Shown piece by piece: positions 1,088 to 34,724 of a DNA stretch of 64,000 nt. Where the stretch lies: assembly GCA_947493005.1 (NCBI GenBank), contig CANLOY010000006.1, positions 62,001 to 126,000 on the forward strand, written 5' to 3'. Each line of letters begins with the position of its first letter. Position 1 is the first letter of the stretch. The stretch is from an uncultured Roseivirga sp. GTDB taxonomy: Bacteria; Bacteroidota; Bacteroidia; Cytophagales; Cyclobacteriaceae. Made by a program: the position numbers and the translations under genes. The notes beneath the pieces are model-generated. The model was not told the origin of the DNA and made no database searches. It worked only from the letters and a program-made list of their open reading frames with translations.

Positions 1088-2267
1088 GTCTTCGTTTTCG
1101 TTTTGCAAATTTCTGTTTAAATATCTCCATTCTGATAATAGGAAACATTATCAAGGCTACCCAAAAAATTGTAAACCTCAGTCCCATATGAGTTAACCCA
1201 TAAGCAAAAAGCGGTAGTGAATAGATTACATAGTACCATGGCAACCTTTTAAACAAAGCCAGGACAAACATGGCAAACATAATTGTGCCTGGAATTCCAT
1301 AACAGAAGATTATTGTCCCTATAGAGGAGTGCATTTCATGCCCTTCTATAAATGTATCGAAGCGATTATAAGCTCCTTCTCCTGCTCCGAACACCAGATA
1401 ATAAGGGTGGTTAGAAATTCTATCATACCCCCTATATTCCCATTCTGTAATTTGATCGGGTCTATCAGCTTCATTTTGTTCTCTTTTTTCAAGGTTTGCC
1501 TGAAAAGTCTGACCAAACTCAGTATTTATAAATGCAAAATAGCCAAGCCCTCCCACAACCACTAAAGCAAATATATTCCTCATCGAGATCACCCCATTCG
1601 CAATTAAGTAAACACCAAAAAGGATAATCATTGCTCCTAAAGCAGCCTTTGATACACTAATGGCAGCTAGATAAGTAAACAGGAAAAAGCTTGCATAAAT
1701 AATCAGCTTAGGAATTTTGAGCATCGTTTCCGAAACCAAAACAATTGCCAATCCACAAAGAGAATAATATCCTAACTGATTGGGATTGGTAAAAAACAAA
1801 GATCCCCTTACTCCTTCTCCCCCTGTAGAAAAGACTGTAGAAAGACCTATCTGTAAAACCGCTGCTAATACACAGGAATATATTGTTGTATACAGAAAGG
1901 CTCTTCCGTATTGTTTATAAAGCCCCAAAGCAAAAACCATTACCACTAAATTGAAGTAATAGAATGCACTCATAATATACCAAGGCAGTCCTTTATTAGG
2001 CTGCCCTAATAGAGCAATAGATACTACAAAATTTACAATTGTAAGGTATATACAGAATCTTAAAAATTTATGGTAAACACCTTTACTATCATCAAACAAA
2101 TCTAGTCCTCTTGAAAGCAGATAAAAAGCCACGGCAATTGCTATAAAAAGGTCAGAAGGTTGGATACTACCAGCGGGAAAAAAATAGAATGGAAAGGACA
2201 TCAAATAAATAGCCCAAGCTTTAAGCCAGCCTTTAGCTCCGATGGTATGTTTGATAATGTCAAACAT
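1023..2267 (-). CDS. O-antigen ligase / Wzy-like polysaccharide polymerase
   Basis: A 414-residue polytopic membrane protein with about ten hydrophobic segments and a large polar loop near residues 260-330 that contains the YRGYDRISNHPYY stretch and a GHEMHSS motif. Such a periplasmic loop is typical of the O-antigen ligase/Wzy superfamily, which polymerises undecaprenyl-linked repeat units or ligates them to an acceptor. Sequence alone does not separate polymerase (Wzy) from ligase (WaaL). The presence of Wza and Wzc in the same cluster favours polymerase. The start overlaps the stop of the upstream gene by one base. The C-terminus is basic (KRKRR) and presumably cytoplasmic. Confidence 0.75.
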   Translation of the reverse strand: MFDIIKHTIGAKGWLKAWAIYLMSFPFYFFPAGSIQPSDLFIAIAVAFYLLSRGLDLFDDSKGVYHKFLRFCIYLTIVNFVVSIALLGQPNKGLPWYIMSAFYYFNLVVMVFALGLYKQYGRAFLYTTIYSCVLAAVLQIGLSTVFSTGGEGVRGSLFFTNPNQLGYYSLCGLAIVLVSETMLKIPKLIIYASFFLFTYLAAISVSKAALGAMIILFGVYLIANGVISMRNIFALVVVGGLGYFAFINTEFGQTFQANLEKREQNEADRPDQITEWEYRGYDRISNHPYYLVFGAGEGAYNRFDTFIEGHEMHSSIGTIIFCYGIPGTIMFAMFVLALFKRLPWYYVIYSLPLFAYGLTHMGLRFTIFWVALIMFPIIRMEIFKQKFAKRKRRLEAAKNYNNSTLTKIPAQGAA

Positions 2268-3382
2268 TAATCCTGAATTTGTTGATATATTCTTTCGCTA
2301 CTTTCCCCAACATCAATATGTTCATGAAAATACGTTAAATCGATTGAATCTTCAAAAAGAGTATCCAACTCAAAAGTACCGGTTAAAGGTATTTTTATAA
2401 CATCAGGATCATCTGTATAATCAAACACATATCCATATTCTGGAATTTCCATTTGTCCAAATCTCCTTTTTGCCCCAAGAAGCTCCAAACCAACTGTCGA
2501 TGCCATAACAACACCTGCACTAACGTCAGAAATTGCCTCCATTATACTGTCCGGTGCTTGTTCAAACGAGTCAAGATACTTTTCTGCAATGCTTAAATAC
2601 TCATGTACGTCTTCCCTGGGATGAGATTTAATACTCACTGCTACTTTATTATTATTTAAATAACTCGCCCCTCTTTTGACAAAGCTTTCAAACAGGTTAA
2701 GTTTTTCTGCTTTTGTACAAAACCCCTGATCATCAATTGGGTTGGTAAAAATGCCGAGTCTTTTTCCACTTACTCTCTCCTTTCCCATTCTCTCAAAAGA
2801 ATTCAAGAACATATCGAAACGAGGTGAACCTGACACAACAACCTTTGTATCCTTGCCTGCAACCTCCTTGAAGTGAGTTGCTGAACGTTTCCCCCACGCA
2901 AAAACCTTTGAAGCACCATTACCTCCATATTTCACTTCTGTTTCATTAGGCAACGGAAACCGGATTCCCTCCTGAATCAGATAGAATGAGATACCTTTTC
3001 TTTTTAAGAAATTGGAAATTTTGTCTCCTGGAAAGGCAGCATCATTCATTAGAATAACCTTATCTACACCCTTAATAGCCGTTTTAATAAATGGTTTGAT
3101 CTTTAGGAACCAAAAAAGATTCCTCACTAGAGCTCTAATGCTGGAGTCACTCTTGCCAAGACTTTGCTTTCCCGAACTTGGTTTTAACTGTTTCGGCAAT
3201 TCTGAAAACTTAACAAAATCCAGTTCTTCCTTCTTAAAGACATCAGTTGGACTTGGCATTCTGCGAAGCTCACATAAAGATATATATCTTACCTGATTAC
3301 CAGCTTGTTTAGCAAGTTTGGCTACCTCAAGCGTGAGCTCCAAATGGTGGTTTGGGTTTGTTATTAGAATTGCCAGTTTCAT
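2267..3382 (-). CDS. Putative GT-B-fold glycosyl/glycerophosphotransferase-like protein
   Basis: 371 residues, soluble. The layout suggests a two-domain GT-B protein. The N-terminal half opens with a Rossmann-like strand (MKLAILITNPNHH) and the C-terminal half carries the segments VFAWGKRSATHF, VVSGSPRFDMF, SIKSHPRED and STVGLELLGA. The order 'name/wake-up segment, SGSPRxD, KxHPR, S-T-x-G-x-E' recalls the CDP-glycerol glycerophosphotransferase and KpsS/LipB-like capsule families, but I cannot place it in one family with certainty. It sits between a GT4 gene (4-bp overlap upstream) and the polymerase (1-bp overlap downstream), so a role in assembling the repeat unit is likely. The donor is unknown. 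Confidence 0.6.
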   Translation of the reverse strand: MKLAILITNPNHHLELTLEVAKLAKQAGNQVRYISLCELRRMPSPTDVFKKEELDFVKFSELPKQLKPSSGKQSLGKSDSSIRALVRNLFWFLKIKPFIKTAIKGVDKVILMNDAAFPGDKISNFLKRKGISFYLIQEGIRFPLPNETEVKYGGNGASKVFAWGKRSATHFKEVAGKDTKVVVSGSPRFDMFLNSFERMGKERVSGKRLGIFTNPIDDQGFCTKAEKLNLFESFVKRGASYLNNNKVAVSIKSHPREDVHEYLSIAEKYLDSFEQAPDSIMEAISDVSAGVVMASTVGLELLGAKRRFGQMEIPEYGYVFDYTDDPDVIKIPLTGTFELDTLFEDSIDLTYFHEHIDVGESSERIYQQIQD

Positions 3383-4488
3383 GTCTCTAAAAACTGAAAA
3401 TAAGAATCCACTCCTTCTTTCTCTTTAAATCGACTAACGGCAGTTGGGGCGTTTGAACTAAAACTCTGCCTCAGTTGCTCATCATTAAGAAGCTTCTCGA
3501 TTGCCCTAGCAAGGTCTTCAGAGTTTTCCGGATCTACCAAAAAACCATTTTTCCCACTCTCTATCAACTCATTAGGCCCTGTTGGACAATCCGTTGACAC
3601 ACATGCTACACCACATGCCATTGCTTGTACAAGTACTCCGGGCATTCCTTCATGTCTTGAACTCAAAACATAGACGTCACTCGACTTCATATACTTAAAA
3701 GGGTTCTTATCGAACCCACCGAAATTCACATTTTCAAAAATCCCAAGGTCTCTTGCCTTTTCTTTATAATGATTCTCTAAAGGTCCTTTCCCCAAAATGA
3801 AAAGGCCAATATTTGCTTTTCTATTCAATACACCTTTAAATGCATTAAGCATTGTATCATAATCCTTTTGCCACTCAAATCGACCAATAGCCAGGACTAT
3901 TTTATCGAATTTTTGAAAAAACTCATTATCCAGTTCTTCTTCCTTACCTTCTAATAAATCACTATTAATTATGGGATTATTGACTACAATGGTTTTGTTC
4001 TTTGAGGTACCCAAAATCTGAACACACTCTTCTGCTACTCCTTTGGAAACTGCTGTTATCCAAGTTGCTTTTTCATAAAGAAACTTCTTTATGCCAAGCA
4101 TCAGCCTTCTTTTCAACTTATTCTTCTTTGGAGGAAATAGAATATTACGTTCAGAAACTACAGATACTCCCTTAAATCCCGAAAGCCATATGGCTAGCAT
4201 CATGGGCATTGAAGCACCACCACAAGTTGAATAAATCACATCATACTTCGAGGAGATTATCGCTCTTCTAAGAGGTAGCCACATACTCCAAAGACTATTA
4301 GCTTTTAAGTCAATCAGTTTCACGTCCTCTGGTAAATCGGCCAAAAATTCTCCTTCAGCCTTCATCAAGGCGAGATCACAGTCGTAGACAGATCGGTCAA
4401 AACCTTTTAATAGATTTAGTGTTACCCTATCTGCCCCTCCATAGCCAAGCGTGGGTCTTACAAATAATATTTTCTTCAAAGGTGACAT
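3379..4488 (-). CDS. GT4-family glycosyltransferase
   Basis: 369 residues, standard length for GT4. The N-terminal acceptor domain has the glycine-rich GYGGADRVTLNLLKGF segment. The donor domain begins with AIGRFEWQKDYDTML and contains SSRHEGMPGVLVQAMACG, then DCPTGPNELI and NGFLVDPE, which line the nucleotide-sugar pocket in this family. It is a cytoplasmic or membrane-associated retaining sugar transferase that adds one residue of the repeat unit. It follows the HAD phosphatase gene by four bases, so it may use the product of the adjacent CMP/SDR cassette, although GT4 enzymes normally use NDP- rather than CMP-sugars. Acceptor and sugar cannot be read from the sequence. Confidence 0.88.
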   Translation of the reverse strand: MSPLKKILFVRPTLGYGGADRVTLNLLKGFDRSVYDCDLALMKAEGEFLADLPEDVKLIDLKANSLWSMWLPLRRAIISSKYDVIYSTCGGASMPMMLAIWLSGFKGVSVVSERNILFPPKKNKLKRRLMLGIKKFLYEKATWITAVSKGVAEECVQILGTSKNKTIVVNNPIINSDLLEGKEEELDNEFFQKFDKIVLAIGRFEWQKDYDTMLNAFKGVLNRKANIGLFILGKGPLENHYKEKARDLGIFENVNFGGFDKNPFKYMKSSDVYVLSSRHEGMPGVLVQAMACGVACVSTDCPTGPNELIESGKNGFLVDPENSEDLARAIEKLLNDEQLRQSFSSNAPTAVSRFKEKEGVDSYFQFLET

Positions 4489-4492
4489 GAAT

Positions 4493-5155
4493 TCAAACTA
4501 GTACAGAAAAGTCAGTCGTTCCATAAGTATAGCTAACTCCTTCCCAATATTCCTTCATCTCATCAGTCAATCGAGCATAAAAATCAACATTGGTAGCTTC
4601 TGCGGCTTTATGATCAGTACTGGCATCTCCAAAAAAAAGACACTGTTCAGGCTTATATGATTCTCTTATTTGAATACCCTTTACTATTGCTTCTTTGGTT
4701 TTAGGGCTACCGTGTACCTCTTGAAAGAAGTTTGCCAATCCTCTTTCCTTAACAATTTCCACCAACTCGATTTCTGGTGTTCCAGATGCCACTACACAAT
4801 ATTTACCAGCACCTACCAATTGTTGGATCAATGATTCAAACCCTTTGACAAAGGGAGCTGCAATAACTTTTTGCTTAACTAATTCCGAGAATTGACTCCC
4901 TAAGTCCTGCCCCATTTCTGCGGTATAGTTTTGGTTGAGTAAGTTTTCTGCAATCCATTTAAACTTCTCAAATCTCGAAATACCCTGATTTTCCAAATGG
5001 TGTCTTTTTATTTCTTCTGAAATCCCCTTCCCATCATAGAGCTCAACAAAAGCCTCTGTCTTTATATTCCCAGATTCCAGAACTACTCCATCAAAATCAA
5101 AAAAAAAGCACTGATAAGTATTTAAGTCTTCAAAAGAAGGTGTTTTGATTATCAT
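4493..5155 (-). CDS. HAD-superfamily phosphatase (beta-phosphoglucomutase-like subclass)
   Basis: 220 residues. HAD motif I is FFDFDGVVLES near residues 18-28, motif II is VASGTPE near 122-128, and motif IV is LFFGDASTDHKAA near 173-185, with a helical cap between motifs I and II. This is the GpH/PGMB type of soluble phosphatase. The substrate is probably a phosphorylated intermediate of the neighbouring cassette (SDR epimerase, D-2-hydroxyacid dehydrogenase, cytidylyltransferase), by analogy with the phosphatases that precede CMP activation in nonulosonate and Kdo pathways. That role is inference. It lies 24 bp downstream of the SDR gene and 4 bp before the GT4 gene. Confidence 0.8.
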   Translation of the reverse strand: MIIKTPSFEDLNTYQCFFFDFDGVVLESGNIKTEAFVELYDGKGISEEIKRHHLENQGISRFEKFKWIAENLLNQNYTAEMGQDLGSQFSELVKQKVIAAPFVKGFESLIQQLVGAGKYCVVASGTPEIELVEIVKERGLANFFQEVHGSPKTKEAIVKGIQIRESYKPEQCLFFGDASTDHKAAEATNVDFYARLTDEMKEYWEGVSYTYGTTDFSVLV

Positions 5156-5179
5156 ATTGAAAACCGATTAAAAACGGTA

Positions 5180-6061
5180 TTAATCGTTATTAGCGTTAAT
5201 TTCTTCTATAATTTCTATCAAGCCCTGGCCCATATCTACATACTCATTAGAAACCAGTTTATGACCAACTTTGGGAGTATATGCATATGGAGTAATATTA
5301 TAGTGACCATTTCCTTTACCCTCATCTCCTAAGAACCTTACTTCCACCTCTTTATTCAGGATTTCTCCAAACATTTTATAAAGGTCAGAGATCTGAAGTC
5401 GATCATTACCAGTCAAAACGTAATGCTTGTTAGCGTATTCAGGTGCGAGAATGGAGGCACTCAATCTAGCAGCATCATAGACATGTATGTAATCTCGCTG
5501 ATCGCTTGACCTACCACTATGCTCCATAGTATTTTGATCCATAAATGTTTTAAGCAACCTAAAAACACCATTTGCCATATCTGTCCTTGGGCCATACAAA
5601 CTCCCATATCTTAATATAGTATATTCCAGTCCATAGCTTTTAAAGAACTCTTCTACATAATTCTCGCAAGCTTGCTTACTACATCTATAGAAGCTCCCTT
5701 CCCTGCTATACACATAAACAGTAGAGCCAAAAACAAAACGTTTGACCTTATTTATTCTTGCTGCCTCAAGCATATTAACTGTTCCCTGAATGTTAATTGA
5801 AACAGTATCTAAGGGGCGTGTTTTTGCGGCATTCAAATCGGCTAATGCGGCAAGGTGATATACATAGTCAAATCCAGCAAGCTGTTCCACCAGTTGACCT
5901 GCATTTCGCATATCTCCTAACACGAACCTCTGATCCTCTCTTAGGTGAGGAGGTTCTATAATATCTAAAATAGTAACCTCATGACCTTCATTGGAAAGTG
6001 CATCTGCAATATGGCTTCCGAGAAACCCTGCTCCGCCTGTCACCAATACTTTTGAACTCAT
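5180..6061 (-). CDS. NAD-dependent epimerase/dehydratase (extended SDR)
   Basis: 293 residues. Extended short-chain dehydrogenase with the NAD-binding TGGAGFLGSHI motif at residues 8-18, the YHLAALAD segment near 67, and the active-site Tyr-x3-Lys in FYRCSKQAC (around residues 122-130). SSDQRDYIHVYD around residue 185 is the usual substrate-domain motif of nucleotide-sugar 4-epimerases and reductases. It resembles UDP-glucose 4-epimerase-like enzymes but is short, and nothing in it fixes the sugar. It overlaps the upstream dehydrogenase gene by 4 bp, so the two are probably translationally coupled and act in the same pathway. Confidence 0.85.
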   Translation of the reverse strand: MSSKVLVTGGAGFLGSHIADALSNEGHEVTILDIIEPPHLREDQRFVLGDMRNAGQLVEQLAGFDYVYHLAALADLNAAKTRPLDTVSINIQGTVNMLEAARINKVKRFVFGSTVYVYSREGSFYRCSKQACENYVEEFFKSYGLEYTILRYGSLYGPRTDMANGVFRLLKTFMDQNTMEHSGRSSDQRDYIHVYDAARLSASILAPEYANKHYVLTGNDRLQISDLYKMFGEILNKEVEVRFLGDEGKGNGHYNITPYAYTPKVGHKLVSNEYVDMGQGLIEIIEEINANND

Positions 6062-6984
6062 TTTTTAAAGAAGTTAATAACGTTTTGTGCTGCCTCCATC
6101 TCCATCTTAATTCGTACTTCGCTTGCGTACGAGCCTATATGGGGAGTTAACGTGCAATTTTCTAATTGACATAAGTTACCTGAATAAGGCTCATTTTCAA
6201 AAGTATCCAGATAAGCTGAAGCACTGTTATTAGTCTGAAGGAAATTAAATAAGGCCCCTTCGTCAATCAACCCACCCCTTGATGCATTCACGATCAACAA
6301 GTTTGATCTGGACCTACTCAAAAAATCACCATTGATTAAATGCCTTGCATCTTGTGAGAACGGAATATGCAATGTAACTATATCCGACTTAGCAGCAATA
6401 TTCTCCAAAGACACATATTCTACATTGTACAATGAAGCAAATTTTTCATCCTTTAAAAGATCGTAAGCCATTACACTTACACCAAAGGGTTGTAATAATT
6501 CAACCAACCTTTTACCCACCTTACCAAGACCTATGATGCCAATCGATTTACCCGTAAGTAAGGTACCCATAGGCTTTTTCCATACTCCTTTGGTCATATT
6601 GGCATGTGATGGGGCAATACTTCTCAGGCATGAAAGTATCCCTCCCAGGGTCAATTCTGCAACGCCATCTACATGAGCACTTGGTGTATTCTCAACGGTA
6701 ACATTAAGTTTTTTAGCTGCCTCGAAATCTACACTATCCATACCTGCTCCTAATCGACACAAGTATTTCAAAGTACTTGCTGAAGAGAGAACTTCTTCAT
6801 TTAATTTCTCAGTTCCTGCAATCATACCATCAAAGCCGGGCATAAGTTCTTTTGATTCCTCAACAGTCAACTTGCGACCGTAAGGGTTTAATACTACTTC
6901 AAAGCCAGCTTCATGAAGCATCTCCAATGGTTTGGGAGCTACTTTTCCAAACGAGGAGCTTGTAATAATTACTTTATATGACAT
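6058..6984 (-). CDS. D-2-hydroxyacid dehydrogenase (phosphoglycerate dehydrogenase-like)
   Basis: 308 residues, the length of a single-unit D-2-hydroxyacid dehydrogenase without an ACT domain. The NAD-binding motif is GIIGLGKVGKRL (about 148-159). The catalytic triad is present: Arg in NASRGG (about 234), Glu in FENEPY (about 263), His in TPHIGS (about 282). It interconverts a 2-keto acid and a D-2-hydroxy acid. It is unlikely to be the serine-pathway enzyme because a serB-serA fusion lies at 43505-45409. In this position it probably makes or oxidises an acid substituent or a glyceric-acid-type building block for the polysaccharide. The substrate is unknown. Confidence 0.85.
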   Translation of the reverse strand: MSYKVIITSSSFGKVAPKPLEMLHEAGFEVVLNPYGRKLTVEESKELMPGFDGMIAGTEKLNEEVLSSASTLKYLCRLGAGMDSVDFEAAKKLNVTVENTPSAHVDGVAELTLGGILSCLRSIAPSHANMTKGVWKKPMGTLLTGKSIGIIGLGKVGKRLVELLQPFGVSVMAYDLLKDEKFASLYNVEYVSLENIAAKSDIVTLHIPFSQDARHLINGDFLSRSRSNLLIVNASRGGLIDEGALFNFLQTNNSASAYLDTFENEPYSGNLCQLENCTLTPHIGSYASEVRIKMEMEAAQNVINFFKK

Positions 6985-7012
6985 TTAGTTGAACCAAAAT
7001 AGATTTAGTTAA

Positions 7013-7783
7013 TTATTTAAAAACGTATCCACATTCATTATCGGCCTTCATCCTTACTGACCTATCTGGGTACTCCCATTCGGAATTCTTTCTTCCAATG
7101 TACACCAAATCGCAAGCAAACCTATTAAAAGGAAAATACCTGGTTGTCAATGGGTTAATTCTTTTAAACCTATTAACCAATGGAGCTGACCATAAAAAAC
7201 AGTCCAACGCATCAAAACCAGCTCTCTTAGCATACCATTTGAATGAATCTGGAGTAAAGAAGCTTATGTGATCTCCGTGCTCATCATAAATTGGACGTAA
7301 AAACCCAGTTCTGTTAAACCATTTATATATTGGCCTTGAAGAAGTTTCAAGAACTAAAATCCCATCATCTTTAAGTAAGTTGTACATTTTCCTTAAAAAA
7401 GTATGAGGAGATTCAACATGCTCAATAGTAGCTATAGAGAACACCATATCTACTTTTGGAAGATCACTTAAATCATCATCCAAAATATTCCGTTTATACA
7501 CATTTAAGCCCATTGCATTCGCGAACTGAACATGTTCACCTGAAATCTCAAGACCATATGAATTGGCACCAAAGTATCTCAAGTAGTGCCCATAACCTGA
7601 GGCAGCATCACATACAGTTCTGCTACTATCATAATACTTGGTTAACAAACTCTTAAATAACAAATCTCTAGGTCTAGACTCTGTGAAATGAAAATCCAGC
7701 ACTTTATTAATCTTGTCTTCTTCCCAGTCTACTAGTTTGTTTCTTAAATTCTCTTTATCTATACTATTTGTTGCTTGATTCAT
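7013..7783 (-). CDS. Class I SAM-dependent methyltransferase
   Basis: 256 residues. The SAM-binding region reads VCDAASGYGHYLRYFG (motif I, about 56-71), followed by an acidic residue in YGLEIS, then VFSIATIEHVESPHTFLR (about 109-126), the post-motif region of Methyltransf_11/23-type enzymes. The C-terminal part contains HGDHISFFTPDSF, a segment common in methyltransferases of sugar clusters. It overlaps the cytidylyltransferase gene by 4 bp. It probably adds an O-methyl (or N- or C-methyl) group to a sugar or acid of the repeat unit. The acceptor is not predictable. Confidence 0.85.
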   Translation of the reverse strand: MNQATNSIDKENLRNKLVDWEEDKINKVLDFHFTESRPRDLLFKSLLTKYYDSSRTVCDAASGYGHYLRYFGANSYGLEISGEHVQFANAMGLNVYKRNILDDDLSDLPKVDMVFSIATIEHVESPHTFLRKMYNLLKDDGILVLETSSRPIYKWFNRTGFLRPIYDEHGDHISFFTPDSFKWYAKRAGFDALDCFLWSAPLVNRFKRINPLTTRYFPFNRFACDLVYIGRKNSEWEYPDRSVRMKADNECGYVFK

Positions 7784-8529
7784 AGTCCTTCTTTTGAGCT
7801 CTTTTTAAGTATCTCTTTTATTTTGTCCAATCCCTCTAACCACCATTCGCTTATTCCTACATCGAAAAATGTATGGATGTCACGGCCTGTTACCCATGTT
7901 CTTAGTATTGGAGCGCTATTTTTGCCCATCCACCACCAAGGGTTTGGCCCATCGTGTGATTGAACAGTGTATTTTCTAAATGCCCAAACACCTTGATCGT
8001 AGTAATATGCCTTCTTATAGGATTGCCGTTCCGTAGAAACATTCCTTTCAACATTTCCATAAGGTCTTAACAGGCCATCATCACTAATTTCCATGGCGCG
8101 AAACGGATGATCATCCTGAGCTTCCCAAACGGTCATGCAAGAATCTAATTCTTTTTCATCATCCAGTTTTTGTAAACATTTGTCGATTATAGAGCCATCT
8201 ACGTATACGGTATTCCCTAATAATAATACCACGTTTTCGAGGTTCTCATATCGTTCGTCTACCCATTCTACTGCATGTTTGATTACATCTCCATGATTTA
8301 TATTATCTCCACCAAGTTCATCGGGTCTTGGAATAACAATTGCATCATGCTTCTCTGCAGCTTTGGCAATTCCCTCTCCATCGGTAGAAACAAAAACCTT
8401 ATCAATTTTAACAGCATCCTTCGATGCCCTTATAGGGTAATAAATTAGCGGCTTACCTTTAACCTCAAGTATATTCTTGTTAAGAATTGACTTACTACCC
8501 GCTCTGGCAGTGATAATAGCTACATTCAT
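7780..8529 (-). CDS. Acylneuraminate cytidylyltransferase-like nucleotidyltransferase
   Basis: 249 residues, in the family that transfers CMP from CTP to nonulosonic acids and related substrates. The nucleotide loop ITARAGSKSILNKNI at residues 6-20 differs from the usual ARGGSKGIPRKNI. KPLIYYPI and VFVSTDGEGIA follow as expected. The C-terminal half is unusual in containing a PNPWWWMG stretch. This is the second CMP-transferase of the cluster. pseF at 28628-29350 serves pseudaminic acid, so this one should act on something else. The neighbours (methyltransferase, 2-hydroxyacid dehydrogenase, SDR, HAD phosphatase) are not a known nonulosonate set. It overlaps the SGNH gene upstream by 4 bp. 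Confidence 0.8.
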   Translation of the reverse strand: MNVAIITARAGSKSILNKNILEVKGKPLIYYPIRASKDAVKIDKVFVSTDGEGIAKAAEKHDAIVIPRPDELGGDNINHGDVIKHAVEWVDERYENLENVVLLLGNTVYVDGSIIDKCLQKLDDEKELDSCMTVWEAQDDHPFRAMEISDDGLLRPYGNVERNVSTERQSYKKAYYYDQGVWAFRKYTVQSHDGPNPWWWMGKNSAPILRTWVTGRDIHTFFDVGISEWWLEGLDKIKEILKKSSKEGL

Positions 8530-9491
8530 CTTGTGTTTCCCTCTATAAATTCTTTTATTTCCTTTGAAAATCGCAGGGTGTAAGCCTGAATTCCTTTATT
8601 ATTCAAGTGCCCTCTATCTTTGAAATTATCTATTTTAAGGCTTATGTCTTTTGGCGATTTAATATAATCTGATTCAAGTTTATTTACTTCTACTTCTATT
8701 TTTGATTCTGACATTTCTTTATCTGATACTTCATCAAGGTTTAAAAAAATAGGTGAGGAAAATGTCGCCAATTGTATATTCCGTAAGCTACAAAACCTCA
8801 CAATTTGATTTAGGTATTCTAAATCTTCAATGGCAAAAGTCGATGCAATTTTCGCTGAACCAGTATTTCCAAAGACTTCATCATGGGTCAGTGCCACCCC
8901 ACCCTTGTTAACATTAAAAAAATCTAAATTACTCTTACCCTTAAATCTATTTTTGAGACTCAGACGAATAGATTGCATGTTGTATTTTAATAAATACAAT
9001 GCTCTTAAATGTTCAAACAAAATCCCTTCTTTTCCATTTATTTGCTTTGTTAACTCATCTTCTAAACTTGGTACTTGGTCTTGTGACAAGTAATCAAATG
9101 GATGAAAAGGGGTACTTAATGACGCTTTTGAATTCAATGAGCTGGCATCTATTACCAAAAACAAATACTTGACTGAGTTACCATTTTTCAAAAACCGAGT
9201 TAAGGTTAATAAGTTATCCAAGTATCCAGATCCATCTGCACCAATATTGACTCCTTTGAGTTCTAATAAAGAGTCGAGAAAATTCATATCAAAAGCCCCA
9301 TGTGCCCGGCTTGAACCTAAAACTGCATAATCAAATTGAGTTCCTTTAATTCTGTCTACCCATTGCCTTTTATTTTTAGGATCCACTAAATACCCGCTAT
9401 CTCGAGATACATTGAAAAACTTATGGAACGCTCCTACACTCAGTAAAATGAGTAAATGAACTAATCCAACATAACTCAAGAATTTCTTCAT
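8526..9491 (-). CDS. Membrane-anchored SGNH-like protein, partner of MBOAT (pair 1)
   Basis: 321 residues. One N-terminal hydrophobic segment (about residues 5-22) is followed by an extracytoplasmic domain. LGSSRAHGAFD near residue 60 supplies the Ser of block I and DRGHLNNKG near 293 supplies the Asp-x2-His-like C-terminal block of SGNH/GDSL or DltD/AlgX-type proteins. In systems such as AlgI-AlgJ/X, DltB-DltD and PatA-PatB the MBOAT passes an acyl group across the membrane and the SGNH partner transfers it to a polymer. The gene directly follows the MBOAT gene with a 1-bp overlap, so an O-acyltransferase role on the surface glycan is inferred. Confidence 0.75.
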   Translation of the reverse strand: MKKFLSYVGLVHLLILLSVGAFHKFFNVSRDSGYLVDPKNKRQWVDRIKGTQFDYAVLGSSRAHGAFDMNFLDSLLELKGVNIGADGSGYLDNLLTLTRFLKNGNSVKYLFLVIDASSLNSKASLSTPFHPFDYLSQDQVPSLEDELTKQINGKEGILFEHLRALYLLKYNMQSIRLSLKNRFKGKSNLDFFNVNKGGVALTHDEVFGNTGSAKIASTFAIEDLEYLNQIVRFCSLRNIQLATFSSPIFLNLDEVSDKEMSESKIEVEVNKLESDYIKSPKDISLKIDNFKDRGHLNNKGIQAYTLRFSKEIKEFIEGNTR

Positions 9492-10924
9492 TAGAACTGA
9501 AAATATATAAACTCCAAAGGATTACCAAAGACTCCAAACCAAACAATATGGGGTATTACGATAATCAAAAAGAGAAGCCCTTTACCCCTAGTCCATTTGT
9601 AAAACCTTATCGAATCATTCTTCAACAACCAGTCAAAAAACAACAGTACAACAACCAGATATATCGTTATTAAATGTTTGAACTCCAAAAAGCCCAAAGT
9701 AATCTCTGATGAGGAAATACGCTTAATTATTTCTAGCGCCTGTGTGACAGAATCAGCTCTAAAAAAAATCCAAGCTAAAGATACTAAACCAAAAGTTAAA
9801 AGCATTTTTGGAATGGAAAGAAAACCTTCTTTGCTCCAGAATGCCGAAAGCTCATGGGTATTTTTTCTATTACGATTAGTAAGTAATAAAGGCAAAAAGA
9901 AAAGTGCATGTAATGCCCCCCATACAACAAAAGTCCAATTTGCACCGTGCCAAAACCCGCTTACCAAGAAAACAATTACCGTATTACGAACTGAAATAAA
10001 CCTACCGAACCTACTTCCTCCTAAGGGTATATATAAGTAATCTCTAAACCAGGTTGACAACGATATATGCCATCTTCTCCAGAACTCTGCGATATCTCTT
10101 GAAAAATAAGGTGTTCTGAAGTTGACCATAAGCTTTATACCAAAGAGGCGTGAAACTCCAATAGCAATATCAGAATAGCCAGAAAAGTCACCATATATTT
10201 GAAATGCAAAAAGAATCACAGCAAAGATTATTTCCAGGCTACCAAAGGAATGATAACCTGCAAAGACTTCGTTTACAATTAAAGCGCAGTTATCAGCAAT
10301 TACGATTTTCTTAAAAAAACCCCATACAATAAGTTGCACTGCTCCAAATGATTGTTTCTCGTCAAATGATCTAGTCTTTTGAAACTGGGGTAACAGATTG
10401 CTGGCTCTTTCAATCGGCCCGGCAACCAACTGCGGAAAAAAGCTCACGAAAGCAAAGAATTTTACAGGATCTCTTTCGGCCTTAATTTTGCCCTTATAAA
10501 TGTCAATCGTGTAACTGAGCGTTTGAAAAGTATAAAAGCTAATACCGACTGGCAGGATAATATCCAAAGTAAAATCATCCAATACAATCCCTAAGGTTTG
10601 AAACGCTTGCTGTAGAGAATCAGCAAAGAAATTGTAATACTTGAAAAAGCCTAAGAGCCCTAAGTTTATTGTAAGACTCAACCACAATAAGTGTTTTCTC
10701 TTTTTTTCTTCGCCTCCTTTATCAATAAGTTTCCCTACTGTAAAATCAACAAATGAACTAAAAGCAATTAGGAAAAGAAAACGCCAATCCCACCATCCAT
10801 AGAAAAAATAGCTAGCCAATAATAGAACCCAGTTCTGCCCTGAAAGTGATCTCTTAAAAACAAACCAGTAGAGACCGAAAACGGTAATAAAGAAAAAATA
10901 AAATTCTATAGAGTTAAATAACAT
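9491..10924 (-). CDS. MBOAT-family O-acyltransferase, AlgI-like (pair 1)
   Basis: 477 residues, polytopic (about ten membrane segments). Conserved features of the AlgI/DltB branch are present: SYFFYGWWDWRFL near residue 40, LPVGISFYTFQ near 128, QLVAGPIERAS near 163, EFWRRWHISLSTWFRDY near 285, and the catalytic His in SGFWHGANWTF near 323. The protein moves an acyl group from a cytoplasmic donor to the periplasmic side. It is followed by an SGNH partner and preceded by a second MBOAT/SGNH pair of similar design, with which it shares long near-identical motifs. The protein ends in FIYFQF, as does its paralogue. Confidence 0.92.
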   Translation of the reverse strand: MLFNSIEFYFFFITVFGLYWFVFKRSLSGQNWVLLLASYFFYGWWDWRFLFLIAFSSFVDFTVGKLIDKGGEEKKRKHLLWLSLTINLGLLGFFKYYNFFADSLQQAFQTLGIVLDDFTLDIILPVGISFYTFQTLSYTIDIYKGKIKAERDPVKFFAFVSFFPQLVAGPIERASNLLPQFQKTRSFDEKQSFGAVQLIVWGFFKKIVIADNCALIVNEVFAGYHSFGSLEIIFAVILFAFQIYGDFSGYSDIAIGVSRLFGIKLMVNFRTPYFSRDIAEFWRRWHISLSTWFRDYLYIPLGGSRFGRFISVRNTVIVFLVSGFWHGANWTFVVWGALHALFFLPLLLTNRNRKNTHELSAFWSKEGFLSIPKMLLTFGLVSLAWIFFRADSVTQALEIIKRISSSEITLGFLEFKHLITIYLVVVLLFFDWLLKNDSIRFYKWTRGKGLLFLIIVIPHIVWFGVFGNPLEFIYFQF

Positions 10925-10927
10925 TGT

Positions 10928-11860
10928 TTACCTCTTGCCATTTATTGACTGAATGTAACTAGCTAAATCTTTCGAAAACCTAGGCACCTCACCATTCCAC
11001 AAATGATTACCATCGACCGTCTGATAGTTACCACTCAGGTTAATCAAATTAATATAAGGTATTCCCTTCTCCTCACTGATTTTAGTAATTAAATCATCAA
11101 AGTCGTATTGTAACTTATTTTCCAATGCATACATTTCTTTAGTCACTGGAATTCGAACTAAAAAGACCTTACCATATTCCTTGCAGTAATCGATGATCTC
11201 ATTTAGATAGTTTAAGCGATAATCTGATACTTCACTATCTACAAACCGAGGTCTTTGACTATACAATTCAAGCACTTCTTTTGCTCTTTTAGTATAGTTT
11301 TTTATCAAATAGTTTGTGTCAAACGGAATAACATATCTCCCAAAGTCATTAACATACCTATCTCTGTCTGCAAACAATCGAGACAGATGTACTTTCTCTT
11401 TCAATAAGTATTTAATGTTTGGCCTAAAATAAGACCATTGGGATGTATAAGAAGCAAGATATTCTTTATTAACTCTTTCCTCCGCGGAACCCTCAGATTT
11501 CACTTCTCTAATAGACCAGGGGTCTACTGATATTATTGTAACTCTAGATGAATCGTATGCAGTCCATTCTGTAAACGCTTTGAGAGCTTCAAAATAGGAT
11601 TTCTCAAAAGAGGACTGTTTCATAGTAAAACTGAAGTTATAAAAATCCTCACCCACAACGTTATTCAGTATGCTCGGTTCAATGCCTTGAGCAGCACGAG
11701 AAGTCCCTAATACAATAGAACCATTATGATGCCTAGTAAAACGTCTATAAAATGCATCAACGTAAGGTTCATTTTTCAAAGCCCCGTAAGCATAAATTGA
11801 AATGATCACCAGAGAACATATCAACAAATAGACTAAACTCTTTACTAGAAATTTTCTCAT
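10928..11860 (-). CDS. Membrane-anchored SGNH-like protein, partner of MBOAT (pair 2)
   Basis: 310 residues with an N-terminal membrane anchor (about 8-25) and an extracytoplasmic domain. VLGTSRAAQGIEP near residue 53 corresponds to the Ser block and VDGNHLWNGE near 285 to the Asp/His block of SGNH-type acyltransferases. It overlaps the MBOAT gene upstream by 1 bp and ends 3 bp before pair 1. It differs considerably from the pair 1 partner, which suggests that the two pairs act on different positions or sugars. The function as acyl transferase to the glycan is inferred from pairing with MBOAT. Confidence 0.72.
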   Translation of the reverse strand: MRKFLVKSLVYLLICSLVIISIYAYGALKNEPYVDAFYRRFTRHHNGSIVLGTSRAAQGIEPSILNNVVGEDFYNFSFTMKQSSFEKSYFEALKAFTEWTAYDSSRVTIISVDPWSIREVKSEGSAEERVNKEYLASYTSQWSYFRPNIKYLLKEKVHLSRLFADRDRYVNDFGRYVIPFDTNYLIKNYTKRAKEVLELYSQRPRFVDSEVSDYRLNYLNEIIDYCKEYGKVFLVRIPVTKEMYALENKLQYDFDDLITKISEEKGIPYINLINLSGNYQTVDGNHLWNGEVPRFSKDLASYIQSINGKR

Positions 11861-13284
11861 TAAAATTGAAAGTAGATAAACTGTGCTCCTTGATTTTCGA
11901 AGAAAGAATTAAAAATCAATACACCACAAATAAGATAAAAGAGCCATCTAAAACTGACTAAAATCTTTGGTACACCTCGCATAATAAAATATTCTACCCC
12001 TAAAAGGAGTAAAATGTATGCTGGATTTTTCTTTCCAATGACAATTTCTGAATTAGAAACATTAGAAAAATCTGCTATACTGGATATATAGTTAACAGCA
12101 TCAGACATTGATTCTGCTCTGAAAAACACCCATGCCAAATTGACCAAACCAAATGTAAATAGCACTTGAAAAATAGACTTAAAAGAAGGTAACCAATTTC
12201 CTTCTAGAATTAAGTCGTCTACATGGTTGCGGTTTGTATTACCTAAAAAGGACGGTATAAAAAATAGTGCATGAATTAAACCCCATACTATAAATGTCCA
12301 ATTAGCCCCATGCCAAAACCCGCTTACAATGAAAATAACAAATACATTTCGGATGCCTTTTGCTTTACCTAACCTAGACCCTCCAAGAGGTATATACACA
12401 TAATCCCTAAACCAAGTCGAAAGTGAAATATGCCACCTTCTCCAAAATTCACCTATACTCCTAGAAAAGTAAGGCATCTTAAAGTTGACCATCAATTCAA
12501 ACCCAAGGAACTTAGCTACACCTCTAGCAATATCCGAATAGCCACTAAAATCTCCATATATCTGAAAAGCAAAAAGTACAGCTCCCAATATCAAAACTGA
12601 GCTCGAATGAGATTCGTAGTTAGAGAATATCTCATTTACAATAGGAGCCAAAGAATCAGCTATGACAACCTTTTTAAACAAACCCCATAATATGAGCCTT
12701 GCTCCATCCACTGCCTGTTTATAAGAAAAAACTCTTTTATTGAGCATTTGAGGAAGCAAGTTGGAAGCTCTTTCAATAGGCCCTGCAACTAATTGCGGAA
12801 AGAATGAAACGAATGAAGCAAAGGCTAAAAGATCTCTTGTCGGTTCTAGTTTATTTTTATAAATATCCAATGTATAGGACATGGTTTGAAACGTATAAAA
12901 ACTAATACCTACTGGCAATACTATGCTCAATGTCCAAGCATCCATTTCGTATCCCATTTGAGAAAATGCCGATACCCAGGAATCAATAAAGAAGTTATAA
13001 TATTTGAAAAAGCCCAATAATCCAAGGTTAAATGAAACACTAAGCCACATCCACCTTCTCTTAATTTTTGGAGCCGTGCTTGCATATAGCTTTTGCCCTA
13101 CCCAAAAATCGAGGAGTGTACTTATGATAATCAGAGATAAAAATCGCCAGTCCCACCAGCCATAGAACAAATAACTTGCAACCAGAACTAAGGCATTCTG
13201 TAATTGCAGCCTTTTATTCAGTAACCAATATAAAGCAAAAGTTATTGGTAAGAAGAGTAGAAATTCAGTCGAATTAAATAGCAT
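11860..13284 (-). CDS. MBOAT-family O-acyltransferase, AlgI-like (pair 2)
   Basis: 474 residues, polytopic and collinear with the MBOAT at 9491-10924: SYLFYGWWDWRFLSL near residue 40, LPVGISFYTFQ near 128, QLVAGPIERASNLLPQM near 163, EFWRRWHISLSTWFRDY near 283, and the catalytic His in SGFWHGANWTF near 325. The C-terminus is again FIYFQF. The two copies are clearly paralogues but diverge in loops and in the C-terminal third, so the duplication is not recent. It is expected to export an acyl group (often acetyl) for transfer by the SGNH partner encoded immediately downstream. Confidence 0.92.
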   Translation of the reverse strand: MLFNSTEFLLFLPITFALYWLLNKRLQLQNALVLVASYLFYGWWDWRFLSLIIISTLLDFWVGQKLYASTAPKIKRRWMWLSVSFNLGLLGFFKYYNFFIDSWVSAFSQMGYEMDAWTLSIVLPVGISFYTFQTMSYTLDIYKNKLEPTRDLLAFASFVSFFPQLVAGPIERASNLLPQMLNKRVFSYKQAVDGARLILWGLFKKVVIADSLAPIVNEIFSNYESHSSSVLILGAVLFAFQIYGDFSGYSDIARGVAKFLGFELMVNFKMPYFSRSIGEFWRRWHISLSTWFRDYVYIPLGGSRLGKAKGIRNVFVIFIVSGFWHGANWTFIVWGLIHALFFIPSFLGNTNRNHVDDLILEGNWLPSFKSIFQVLFTFGLVNLAWVFFRAESMSDAVNYISSIADFSNVSNSEIVIGKKNPAYILLLLGVEYFIMRGVPKILVSFRWLFYLICGVLIFNSFFENQGAQFIYFQF

Positions 13285-15485: not shown

Positions 15486-17150
15486 CTACCTTCTTCTTTT
15501 AATTAATGCATCAATTATTGTCAATTTACCACTACTATTTAAAGTGTGAGTAGAAATTAAATCTTTATCCCAATTAGGGTAAATTGATTGGATAGATCTT
15601 TCATCAAAACTCTCTTCATCCATTTTAACAATTTCCCTAAGGCACATTGCTCTACCATAATGCCCTGAATTGTCTTGAGCGGGTCTGAACAATCTACCTT
15701 TATGCATAAACAAGTTTCCTGCTGGTCTAGCAAACTTCACATCAGTGATTATTGGGTTTAGGGGGTGAGAAGTCCAAGAACCTTCCAAAAGGTCATCAGA
15801 GTAAAAGAGAAATAACTCATCTAGTGTGGTAGCTCCAGGAACTTCTTTGATATTAGTGAATAGCCAGTATTTCTTATCATGCTTAAAAACGGTTGCATCA
15901 GAAGCTACAACATCTTTCATAATTGTACGATGATGCTCCCATTTACTCGGGAAGTCAACACACTTATATAAATCAATTGATCCATTCTCATTTGATTCAG
16001 GTATCATATAATACTCTCCATCTTCCTCAATAATGAATGGGTATGATAAATGATAATCTGTTTCTAATACTTTTTGGGGTTGTGTATACTCCCCTCTATC
16101 ATTCATTTCTATTACGGATATAAAACCCTTCTTACGACCTGCTAATAAAAGTTCTTCTATAAAGATATAGTACTTACCATCCTTCTCAACAATAAATGGG
16201 TCTGCCCAAATCCTGTCTTTAGGAGGCATCATTCTTTTGAACCTAAAAAAAGAGCTTGAGATATTTTCTTTCTTTTTTAACTCAAAGAGCAGTATCCATT
16301 GCTTAAAGAAAAATCGCTTTTCAATTTTAGCACGTATTCTCGCTTTGTAGCTTTTAACAAAGATTGGCCACATCTCTTTATTTGTAGGCATCTTATACAA
16401 GCGATTGTAATAGTAAGATGGGGCGGAATTTTGCCTTTCAAGCTGCTCAAAGAATTCCGTTTCCCCCAGTCTGTGAAGCTCCTCAATCTTTCTGGGTAGC
16501 ATACTACTTGATTTCCAATAAAGTGTATTTCGATTTCTAAGAATACTAAGGCTATTTGTTTGAATTGTTGATTCGGCTAAAGTAACACCTCCATCTAAAT
16601 CTTCGGTTAAAATCTGTAAAAGAGCTCCTGTCTCTAACCATCCCTCAATGGATTCCCAAGTGGCAGCCGGCCCTCCTCTATTAACCTTGTTATCACCATG
16701 ATGATAAGACCAGACTCCATACTTTGCAACGTTTAGAATGTCTCCTCTGAGAATTCTGAAGCCCATTCGAATCAATATATCAAGTTCATAAGCCTTTATC
16801 TGATCAATATCTTTGTCTAAGACTCTATCACTAAATTTCGTAGTCTTGGGCGAAACAATGAGTTCTGGACAATCAATAATATCCCAAAGCCCTTTAGGTT
16901 CCAATGCATTTGGTTTTGGCCTAAATCTTCTCTGGTCAAGCTTCCTGAAAATCCTGAATAAGCGTTGATCTGGGTATTTTAAAAGACTCTTCTTGAAACT
17001 TAATTTCTCTTCTGAGGGAGCATCTTTTTTTATGACTAAAACAATTTCAGTGTTCGAAGAATTCTGAATTCGTTCTAACATTTTATAGGACCAAGCTGGT
17101 ATGCTGTCACCTTGTACAAGAAGTCCTATTCTGATTTTCCTGTCAAACAT
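15486..17150 (-). CDS. Fusion: formyltransferase-like domain + GINT1-like beta-propeller domain
   Basis: 554 residues in two parts. Residues 1 to about 260 resemble a methionyl-tRNA/sugar formyltransferase fold: a Rossmann-like start RIGLLVQGDSIPAW, then LIRMGFRILRGDIL, GVWSYHHGDNKVNRGGPA and TEDLDGGVTLAES, where H and D match the catalytic His/Asp positions. From about residue 290 the protein shows repeated blades (IWADPFIVEKDGKYYIF, LSYPFIIEEDGEYYMIPE, VASDATVFKHDKKYWLF), the pattern of the N-terminal propeller of glucosamine inositolphosphorylceramide transferase-like proteins and GH43-like folds. The fold calls are from pattern reading. The role may be in N-formylation or recognition of a glycan. 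It overlaps the upstream GT4 gene by 8 bp. Confidence 0.65.
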   Translation of the reverse strand: MFDRKIRIGLLVQGDSIPAWSYKMLERIQNSSNTEIVLVIKKDAPSEEKLSFKKSLLKYPDQRLFRIFRKLDQRRFRPKPNALEPKGLWDIIDCPELIVSPKTTKFSDRVLDKDIDQIKAYELDILIRMGFRILRGDILNVAKYGVWSYHHGDNKVNRGGPAATWESIEGWLETGALLQILTEDLDGGVTLAESTIQTNSLSILRNRNTLYWKSSSMLPRKIEELHRLGETEFFEQLERQNSAPSYYYNRLYKMPTNKEMWPIFVKSYKARIRAKIEKRFFFKQWILLFELKKKENISSSFFRFKRMMPPKDRIWADPFIVEKDGKYYIFIEELLLAGRKKGFISVIEMNDRGEYTQPQKVLETDYHLSYPFIIEEDGEYYMIPESNENGSIDLYKCVDFPSKWEHHRTIMKDVVASDATVFKHDKKYWLFTNIKEVPGATTLDELFLFYSDDLLEGSWTSHPLNPIITDVKFARPAGNLFMHKGRLFRPAQDNSGHYGRAMCLREIVKMDEESFDERSIQSIYPNWDKDLISTHTLNSSGKLTIIDALIKRRR

Positions 17151-27687: not shown

Positions 27688-28638
27688 TTAGTGCTTAATA
27701 AAATTCAACATTTGCAAATTTAATCGAACTGCTTCTTCAAAATTATCGTCAACTACTTTTTCTGCTAGTATGTTATGAGCCAATTCGGCTACAGGTTCCA
27801 TATAGTTTCTGAGACAGTTCTCTTTGGATTGATGTTCTAGAGGTTTCAATGGTTTGAAGTAAACACCTTCTTTATCAGCTTTAGACACCTCAATTATATT
27901 TCCAGCTTCCTTTAAATGAATTCTATGATATTCGAAGAAAATATCAACTTCAAAGTGCGAAAACTTAACATTTGATATGCCTAAAACATCTACGTTCACA
28001 CCGTCCCAATTAGCACGAAGAGACATGGTTGGATCGTTTGGAAAAGCATCAAACACATGATTGGATGTTTCAACATTTTCCAATTCCATTTCAGCACCTA
28101 AAAGGTATTGAACTAAATCTAGTGCATGCCCTGCATTATTAACAAAGCCTCTTTGATATCGGATAGACAGATTTGTCAAAGGCTCTGTTTTGAGGACTTC
28201 CTGGATGTATAATTTCAAGTCAATATAGCAAGGAAGGAACCTCCGTATATAATTTACCACTACCCTTGTATCCGACAATTGATATTTAGCTTGAAGTGAT
28301 TTTAAATCTTCCAACTCAGAAGCCACTGGCTTTTCACAAACGACTAATTTTACCTTGGCTTCAAATGCCTTGATCAAAAGTTCTGTATGCGTTGTAGTAG
28401 GTGTACAAATACTAATACAGTCGAATTCTGATAATTCTATCTCTTCTAAATTGGTCAAAAATGAAGCTTCATATTGATTCGCGACTTTTTCTGCAAGTGT
28501 AGAATCTAAATCAAAAAAGGTAGGAGTAAATTTGGGGTGTAGGAAAAAGGCTTTTGCATGCGTTTGAACAAATCCATTATCGAAGTCATAGCCTGCTCCA
28601 ATATTACCACATCCAATGATCAATATTTTATAGCTCAC
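27688..28638 (-). CDS. Gfo/Idh/MocA-family oxidoreductase
   Basis: 316 residues. The N-terminal Rossmann fold has LIIGCGNIGAGYDFD at 6-20 and CEKPVASELEDL near 100, the signature Glu-Lys-Pro of the family. YIRRFLPCYIDLKLYI near 130 opens the substrate domain. Members oxidise or reduce a sugar or sugar-nucleotide hydroxyl with NAD(P). Pairing with the DegT gene downstream suggests making a keto-sugar for transamination, possibly at C3. It overlaps pseF by 11 bp. A second Gfo protein of this cluster is at 31419-32489 and is not closely similar. Confidence 0.85.
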   Translation of the reverse strand: MSYKILIIGCGNIGAGYDFDNGFVQTHAKAFFLHPKFTPTFFDLDSTLAEKVANQYEASFLTNLEEIELSEFDCISICTPTTTHTELLIKAFEAKVKLVVCEKPVASELEDLKSLQAKYQLSDTRVVVNYIRRFLPCYIDLKLYIQEVLKTEPLTNLSIRYQRGFVNNAGHALDLVQYLLGAEMELENVETSNHVFDAFPNDPTMSLRANWDGVNVDVLGISNVKFSHFEVDIFFEYHRIHLKEAGNIIEVSKADKEGVYFKPLKPLEHQSKENCLRNYMEPVAELAHNILAEKVVDDNFEEAVRLNLQMLNFIKH

Positions 28639-29350
28639 TCGCTTTGTTTTTCTCTAACAAAAAAGTGTATTTAATCTCAGCTACCTTCCAGTCCTCTTCA
28701 TTATCAATATCCTGTACTTCACTCTCTGGCATCTCAATTGGTAAAGTGAAATCAGTAAACATCTTGGCATCTTTCAAAAAGTCTTCAGTTTTCAAAAAGT
28801 AGAATTGACCACTATCATGAAAGGTTGGAGTTAAGTCCTGAGACCTGCTATTCATATGCTCAGGCCAATTCATCTCAACTCTTTCATTTTCAATCTTAAA
28901 TGAACGCTGAATTGGAAATCCAAACCTTACTATTGGCACGACTGATTTAGCACCTGATTCAGAAAGTAATTTATAAGCTTCTGAAAGTTTCACGGAAGTC
29001 ACAAAAGGTGCGGTTGGGTATAAACAACAGAAATATTTAAAAGATTTACCTTCATTTAGGTACTGTTCAAGTACCTCGTTTAATACGTCAGCGGTGGTTG
29101 AATAATCATCAGATGTTTTTGCAGATCTTTTAAATGGAACAATGGCTCCTGCCTTTTTTGCGATTTCGGCAATTTCATCATCATCTGTAGAAACCATAAC
29201 TTCATCAAAGCAACCAGCATTTAAAGCAGCCTCTATTGAGTAGTTTATAATAGGTTTCCCAAGAAATTCTTTAATGTTCTTGCGCGGAATCCTCTTACTT
29301 CCTCCTCTGGCAGTAATAATAGCCAAACAGCCTTTCATTTCTTTGATCAT
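28628..29350 (-). CDS. pseF: Pseudaminic acid cytidylyltransferase
   Basis: 240 residues, the normal length. The CTP loop IITARGGSKRIPRKNIKEF is at 10-28, KPIINYSIEAAL follows, then MVSTDDDEIAEIA near 52 and CLYPTAPFVTS near 107. It catalyses CTP + Pse5Ac7Ac giving CMP-Pse in the cytoplasm. The assignment to PseF rather than NeuA/LegF rests on the adjacent pseI (4-bp overlap) and the pseB and pseC genes upstream. A second Met at residue 5 is an alternative start, but the first overlaps the pseI stop in the ATGA arrangement typical of this operon. Confidence 0.88.
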   Translation of the reverse strand: MIKEMKGCLAIITARGGSKRIPRKNIKEFLGKPIINYSIEAALNAGCFDEVMVSTDDDEIAEIAKKAGAIVPFKRSAKTSDDYSTTADVLNEVLEQYLNEGKSFKYFCCLYPTAPFVTSVKLSEAYKLLSESGAKSVVPIVRFGFPIQRSFKIENERVEMNWPEHMNSRSQDLTPTFHDSGQFYFLKTEDFLKDAKMFTDFTLPIEMPESEVQDIDNEEDWKVAEIKYTFLLEKNKASEL

Positions 29351-31406: not shown

Positions 31407-31418
31407 AAAAGACTATTG

Positions 31419-33493: not shown

Positions 33494-33527
33494 TTTGGAA
33501 TGTTAAATTGCTATACAAGCTCTTTAA

Positions 33528-34721: not shown

Positions 34722-34724
34722 TAA

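Follow-up and report, generated by a model that had tools for sequence, protein, structure and literature searches.

What sugar is activated by the second cassette for cytidine monophosphate (CMP) transfer in an uncultured Roseivirga sp.? The question arises from five open reading frames (ORFs) at 4493-8529 of the 64-kb window studied here (the whole stretch of DNA analysed, part of a 4.88 Mb assembly), all on the - strand, as a preliminary description of this DNA had placed them and with Pfam families that agree with it. In order, they encode a cytidylyltransferase (CTPT; 7780-8529; PF02348), an S-adenosylmethionine (SAM) methyltransferase (7013-7783; PF13489, Methyltransf_23), a D-2-hydroxyacid dehydrogenase (2HADH; 6058-6984; PF02826, 159 bits, 2-Hacid_dh plus 2-Hacid_dh_C), an extended short-chain dehydrogenase/reductase (SDR; 5180-6061; PF01370, Epimerase, 150 bits) and a HAD-IA phosphatase (4493-5155; PF00702/PF13419, Hydrolase/HAD_2). 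Their ends had been described as overlapping, which is true of the CTPT/methyltransferase and 2HADH/SDR junctions (4 bases each) but not of the other two, where gaps of 28 bases (methyltransferase/2HADH) and 24 bases (SDR/HAD) are found. We lean, by a modest degree, towards the view that CTPT, 2HADH, SDR and HAD form a module whose product is a six-carbon 2-ulosonic acid activated with CMP, for example 2-ketogluconic acid or one of its isomers, reached by oxidation of a hexose 6-phosphate and not by condensation with phosphoenolpyruvate (PEP); the substrates and the order of steps are what we infer, the SDR at step 1 above all.

By its sequence, the cytidylyltransferase forms a separate family within the CTP_transf_3 superfamily, to which the CMP-ulosonate synthetases PseF, NeuA and KdsB also belong. 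Its 57.9 bits on the Pfam model, against a gathering score of 22.6, make it a superfamily member, while its 99.8 bits on the PseF model TIGR03584 fall under the curated cut-off of 205.7 and its 26-38 bits on five KdsB models under cut-offs of 155-281. As had been claimed, the cassette is a second one for CMP activation; by the curated cut-offs, its cytidylyltransferase is not a PseF or KdsB orthologue. The contrary outcome named at that time, a close pseF or neuA orthologue, was not found for PseF, and NeuA appeared only as distant sequence matches in the PDB (best 84 bits, 6ifd), with no NeuA model among the curated-model matches. The family has motifs of its own: LLGNT, DDHPxR, RQxY, DQGxW, PWWWMG and GRDxH are nearly fixed (each named position being kept in at least 45 of the 48 members aligned), and PseF has YPTAP where the family has LLGNT; K18, N19, R68, R144 and D217 are common to CTPT and the PseF of the window (alignment of nine). 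Its steady neighbours, moreover, are dehydrogenases and not a NeuB or KdsA synthase. The gene is rare: at E<=1e-30 it was found in 3 of the 291 genomes searched from the order and, at E<=1e-22, in 8 of 395 from the phylum, three of these eight (including the window genome) being at least 49% identical. The closest relatives come from Roseivirga and its kin in the Bacteroidota, and tree labels place the family in ten phyla: Bacteroidota, Myxococcota, Planctomycetota, Chloroflexota, Acidobacteriota, Pseudomonadota, Elusimicrobiota, Lentisphaerota, Nitrososphaerota and Tectimicrobiota. A tblastn search of plasmids gave 48 records, every one below 60% identity. Seven IMG/VR contigs labelled viral (L067-L073) also encode members, two of them (L067, L068) with SDR and 2HADH nearby.

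Around this gene the same neighbours recur. Searched with an alignment of five homologues, the GTDB contigs yielded 45 loci, of which L066 is only a distant relative, and IMG/VR yielded seven. The counts that follow come from profile searches of the ORFs within 9 kb of CTPT in 54 loci, namely the window, L016, L020 and L022-L073 minus L066 (29% identity); L013, L014 and L015 repeat L025, L027 and L031, the distant relatives L017-L019 and L021 are uncounted, and L065 ends at a contig edge with no CTPT call. We found 2HADH in 41, SDR in 38 (36 of them over 140 bits) and HAD in 33 of these loci, always on the same strand as CTPT, and the full set in 30, which record titles and tree labels assign to six phyla. 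The recurrent unit is CTPT-2HADH-SDR-HAD, whose co-occurrence goes beyond chance; of the five-gene block that the preliminary description had proposed to search for in other genomes, four genes recur and the methyltransferase lies outside the unit. In one single-cell genome (L062, one case) HAD and 2HADH share one open frame of 536 aa, as would be expected for linked steps. No NeuB-type synthase was found within the recurrent module in the 54 loci; PseI-like genes occur in nine, none adjoining CTPT in the locus maps. A Gfo/Idh protein was considered as a substitute for 2HADH in Neolewinella (L015/L031) and ruled out, a same-strand 2HADH being present 7.6 kb from CTPT. At L020 (3103-8338) a divergent cytidylyltransferase (28%) stands with clear module SDR, 2HADH and HAD genes and an FkbM-type methyltransferase.

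The best clue to the substrate class comes from outside the window, in the form of 6-phosphogluconolactonase. A gene of this type stands inside the module in nine loci (L016, L028, L029, L030, L032, L034, L036, L061 and L062) and takes five placements: in the HAD/GT4 interval, upstream of CTPT, in the interval between HAD and another transferase, after HAD, and before HAD::2HADH. About 0.6 such genes would be expected by chance (taking the three PF01182 genes of G000 as the number in each genome), which gives a Poisson probability for at least nine of about 2e-8, a figure that is overstated because the loci are related. With unlabelled rows left out, the minimum of label changes counted for the lactonase on a 53-row tree is two, so that we claim separate arrangements and not a number of origins. 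All nine in-module copies keep G39, G40, D69, E70, R71, D138 and H140, and six (G395, G678, G679, G681, G683 and G684) exceed the cut-off of the lactonase model TIGR01198 (124.45 bits), two scanned copies scoring 134.9 and 154.8 bits. A part of the module genomes was tested for the neighbouring steps (26 for Zwf, the glucose-6-phosphate dehydrogenase, with model PF02781, and 27 each for lactonase and 6PGD). Thirteen of the 26 had no PF02781 match, among them all nine with an in-module lactonase, so that Zwf was found in 13 of 17 other module genomes versus 0 of 9 (Fisher p 0.0005, or 0.001 once two small single-cell genomes are dropped); G694 and G695, at 1.4 and 1.7 Mb, are weak cases of absence. 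Among the 14 Zwf-less module genomes, lactonase was over the cut-off in 11 and gave a weaker match in three, and a 6PGD match was absent in 11. The window genome itself showed no match to Zwf or 6PGD, its lactonase scores 204 bits, and the 7 kb around that gene, read for a missed zwf, held none.

As a control we took 145 genomes of the order that are at least 95% complete, by their listed handles seemingly a subset of the 291. Zwf was found in 42, lactonase over the cut-off in 43 and both in 41; the only two with such a lactonase and no Zwf, G000 and G132, are the module carriers known in the sample (the third carrier of the order, G241, is not listed in it), as against 0 of the 101 other Zwf-less genomes (p 0.0002). 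The lactonase follows the module across genomes, and where Zwf is absent the lactone should therefore come from another enzyme. In three Roseivirga loci of genomes with no Zwf match (L078, L079 and L080), the lactonase lies beside gluconokinase-like and MscS-like genes, both named by eye.

Two dehydrogenases with an Asp that we take to be at the position typical of nicotinamide adenine dinucleotide (NAD) binding (D175 in 2HADH, D33 in SDR), together with a lactonase, a phosphatase and a CMP-transferase, fit a single path from hexose 6-phosphate to CMP-hex-2-ulosonate. The SDR, as a proposed hexose-6-phosphate 1-dehydrogenase, would oxidise C1 with NAD to give the lactone; 6-phosphogluconolactonase, encoded either by the module or by another part of the genome, would open it to a 6-phospho-aldonate; and 2HADH, as a proposed 6-phospho-aldonate 2-dehydrogenase, would oxidise C2 to the 2-keto acid. 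From this 2-keto-aldonate-6-phosphate the HAD enzyme, its proposed phosphatase, would strip the phosphate, leaving a hex-2-ulosonate with O6 free for a pyranose ring, whereupon CTPT, as a proposed CMP-hex-2-ulosonate synthetase, would join the anomeric C2 hydroxyl to CMP; a linked GT-B glycosyltransferase (2267-3382, -) would then probably add the sugar to a surface glycan. The preliminary suggestion of a 2-keto or 2-hydroxy acid that is dephosphorylated and then CMP-activated is what we, too, infer to be most likely. The enzymes keep residues that such roles would need: R236, E265 and H282 of 2HADH (presumably the catalytic Arg, Glu and His) and G152, G154 and D175 (presumably its NAD site) are invariant in an alignment of 22, and D20, D22, S124, K154, D177 and D181 of HAD, which we take to be the DxD nucleophile, Ser/Thr, Lys and acidic motif, in one of 19. 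Nonulosonate and Kdo pathways consist of a NeuB/PseI/KdsA synthase, a phosphatase and a cytidylyltransferase, and would share with the module a 2-keto sugar acid that is dephosphorylated, CMP-activated and handed to a transferase; unlike them, the module is without a PEP-dependent synthase, and the carbon skeleton would pass unchanged from the hexose phosphate. Zwf and 6-phosphogluconolactonase begin the oxidative pentose phosphate pathway, and KguD and GhrB belong to 2-ketogluconate metabolism; with these the module would have in common a lactone, a lactonase and 2-keto-6-phosphogluconate chemistry, whereas no Zwf was found in the genomes with an in-module lactonase, and the proposed flow is to a glycan and not to catabolism.

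A number of observations weigh against this proposal. Many CTPT-bearing genomes are metagenome-assembled or single-cell genomes, and the loci are mutually related and not independent; one locus (L053) has CTPT, 2HADH and HAD and lacks an SDR within 9 kb. Several loci are short contigs, which weakens the absences noted for them. Of the in-module lactonases, three fall short of the cut-off (G677 115.4, G695 99.8 and G694 68.5 bits), the lowest of these being a score that NagB-like matches also reach, and in 54 of the 145 order genomes every match lies under the cut-off (those listed, at most 85 bits). Two of the 27 module genomes (G689 and G690) have no match to this lactonase family; a PF10282 lactonase is present in G689 and not in G690 or G693, and since the window genome encodes a protein of this family too (339.6 bits), its lactonase need not be the TIGR01198 one and another could serve. 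6PGD gave a full match in G695 and partial matches in G679 and G683. For the linked GT-B transferase, the best PDB sequence match is a weak one to KpsC (E 0.23), and hhalign of its family with the L016 transferase gave a weak 5.6% probability. A 2HADH also occurs in two aldolase-bearing loci described below (L037 and L047), where the scheme does not account for it. Finally, step 1 lacks support from the relationships of the SDR: its closest kin in sequence and fold (Foldseek) are UDP-sugar 4-epimerases, an R189-type RDY motif is retained, and the enzyme reaches 37.5 bits of 400 on the model of Azf, an SDR-type glucose-6-phosphate dehydrogenase; the PseB of the window scores 45.4 on the same model, so that the SDR match to Azf means nothing.

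The SDR is accordingly our weakest assignment, its place at step 1 being reached by elimination. Y125, K129, S113 and D33 are invariant in an alignment of 30, and two features speak for the assignment. All four alignments shown have a shortened loop ahead of the catalytic Tyr, and the RxGD stretch, which presumably binds the nucleotide diphosphate in UDP-sugar epimerases, is missing in comparison with the epimerase 4zrm, the only alignment that reaches this region; the consensus there reads GHYxxTPYAYTPK. The kinship with 4-epimerases could also mean that the product is the same CMP-hex-2-ulosonate and that the SDR acts as an epimerase or dehydratase on the CMP-sugar or a late intermediate, giving for example a 4-deoxy sugar, with the lactone supplied by another dehydrogenase. 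A 4-deoxy-2-hexulosonic acid is indeed reported for the Escherichia coli K3 antigen in a title cited in PMC10433991. We consider this possible but unlikely: the SDR has no C-terminal RxGD and its loop is shortened relative to 4zrm, and no enzyme of the module would be left to make the lactone in Zwf-less genomes.

Some loci carry an aldolase variant of the unit. HpaI-type aldolases act on 2-keto-3-deoxy acids, and a gene of the HpaI/GarL type stands within 2 kb of CTPT in five loci (L037, L047, L058, L064 and L070; the L047 copy was scanned). HAD, lactonase and the module SDR were not found within 9 kb in these loci (best SDR 36 bits, L047), absences that are weak for the short contigs of L058, L064 and L070. 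Because the aldolase loci are without module SDR, HAD and lactonase, CTPT seems to be where two distinct routes to a 2-keto acid converge, which we count in favour of the pathway proposed above. It is improbable that CTPT activates a 2-keto-3-deoxy (KDG-like) acid from an aldolase or dehydratase in all loci, with the oxidising enzymes modifying it. These five loci, and the aldolases beside the relatives L017 and L018, would suit such a scheme, but the aldolase cluster is absent from the SDR/HAD loci (dehydratases were not searched for), and the lactonase and HAD would be left unexplained. Of these distant cytidylyltransferase relatives adjoining HpaI-type aldolases (scanned at L017, read by eye at L018), L017 also carries a protein like 4-hydroxy-2-oxovalerate aldolase (113 bits), and L018 a GAPDH-like protein.

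That CTPT is an ordinary nonulosonate or Kdo cytidylyltransferase, with the other genes serving unrelated sugars, would agree with the shared superfamily and with PseI-like synthases some 3.5-10 kb from CTPT in several loci, yet it is very unlikely in view of the low PseF and KdsB scores, the separate motifs, the constant neighbours in six phyla, and the location elsewhere in the window of its own PseF (28628-29350, 306.8 bits) and PseI (516.5 bits), along with PseC and PseB, also over their cut-offs. As far as is known, activation in the CTP_transf_3 superfamily takes place on anomeric hydroxyls. This argues against a reading close to that of the preliminary description, in which 3-phosphoglycerate is the substrate of 2HADH and HAD, and a glycerate-like acid, O-methylated by the methyltransferase, is what the cassette activates; the best curated-model score of 2HADH is indeed that for phosphoglycerate dehydrogenase (206.9 bits of 454), but lactonase and SDR would have no role and the methyltransferase is missing from sister loci, so that we give it hardly any credence.

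In those sister loci (L023-L026) the ends of CTPT and 2HADH overlap, leaving no room for a methyltransferase, and tblastn of the methyltransferase against 61 sequences gave only weak matches outside the window (at most 28% identity, 47 bits). For these two reasons methylation would be a local extra at best, and the O-methylated acid group proposed for the product finds no support in the sister loci. As a candidate member of the pathway the methyltransferase is ruled out, with other genes occupying the same junction elsewhere: L022 has an unrelated opposite-strand gene there (10747-11667), and L027 an MBOAT and another gene. The CTPT/2HADH junction thus accepts insertions, the methyltransferase at 7000-7800 of the window among them.

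More tentatively than the pathway itself, and just short of an even chance, we propose that CMP-hex-2-ulosonate is a new class of CMP-sugar, made without a PEP-dependent aldol step in many phyla, that it explains orphan lactonases, and that the SDR is a new hexose-6-phosphate dehydrogenase. To our knowledge, the characterised CMP-ulosonates (Neu5Ac, Pse, Leg, Kdn and Kdo) all start with a PEP-dependent synthase; if our proposal is true, a dehydrogenase route adds a six-carbon class to them, provides a marker by which hexulosonic acids of surface glycans can be recognised from genomes, and explains why some bacteria keep a 6-phosphogluconolactonase without Zwf to supply its substrate. The literature searched, mostly abstracts, held no description of a CTPT-2HADH-SDR-HAD module. 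The E. coli K3 capsule, with its hexulosonic acid as named in that cited title, resembles the proposed product, and the route would be a candidate for sugars of this kind; the K3 locus was, in the relevant statement of PMC10433991, still to be genetically determined in 2023, and the word 'hexulosonic' is absent from the main text of a 2026 paper on E. coli capsule typing (PMC13171606). A blastn search of 20,395 E. coli records with the L043 module gave no match at the DNA level, a result that leaves room for relatives at the protein level.

In many loci two glycosyltransferases and a membrane protein, which in the window lie beyond 4493, extend the unit. Homologues of the GT4 glycosyltransferase (3379-4488, -; PF00534) occur within 9 kb of CTPT in 25 of the 54 loci above 40 bits and in 20 above 480 bits, and those of the GT-B transferase in 18. 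The latter is a candidate transferase of the CMP-sugar by its module linkage and predicted GT-B fold (mean pLDDT 87.5), for which Foldseek gave a general GT-B result with UDP-GlcNAc 2-epimerases as top matches. Its resemblance to CMP-ulosonate transferases is weak and suggestive only: 13 of 17 family members match BFO_1060_trans and 13 of 17 TIGR04396 (E<=1e-3, weak), and one of 17 matches a Kdo transferase model. EG is present in all 17 members and HP in 13. Bacterial sialyltransferases carry D/E-D/E-G and HP motifs, according to a passage in PMC6388019, and the module transferase has QEG in place of the former, which makes the likeness partial. The third ORF (1023-2267, -), from its sequence a probable multi-pass membrane protein and perhaps the polymerase of the cluster, has homologues in 14 of the 54 loci and gave no match in a Pfam scan.

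Elsewhere in the window, 28628-35741 holds the pseudaminic acid genes PseF, PseI, PseC and PseB; PseG was not named among the genes scanned there, and a PseH-like domain (78.6 of 93.1 bits) forms part of the C-terminal half of a 341-aa protein (30381-31406). At 8526-13284 an SGNH/AlgX-like protein is paired with an MBOAT acyltransferase, and the pair occurs twice in tandem (MBOAT scan match at 9491-10924, the remainder by eye); 15486-17150 encodes a protein of 554 aa whose GINT1_N domain (136.9 bits) follows an N-terminal half judged by eye to be formyltransferase-like.

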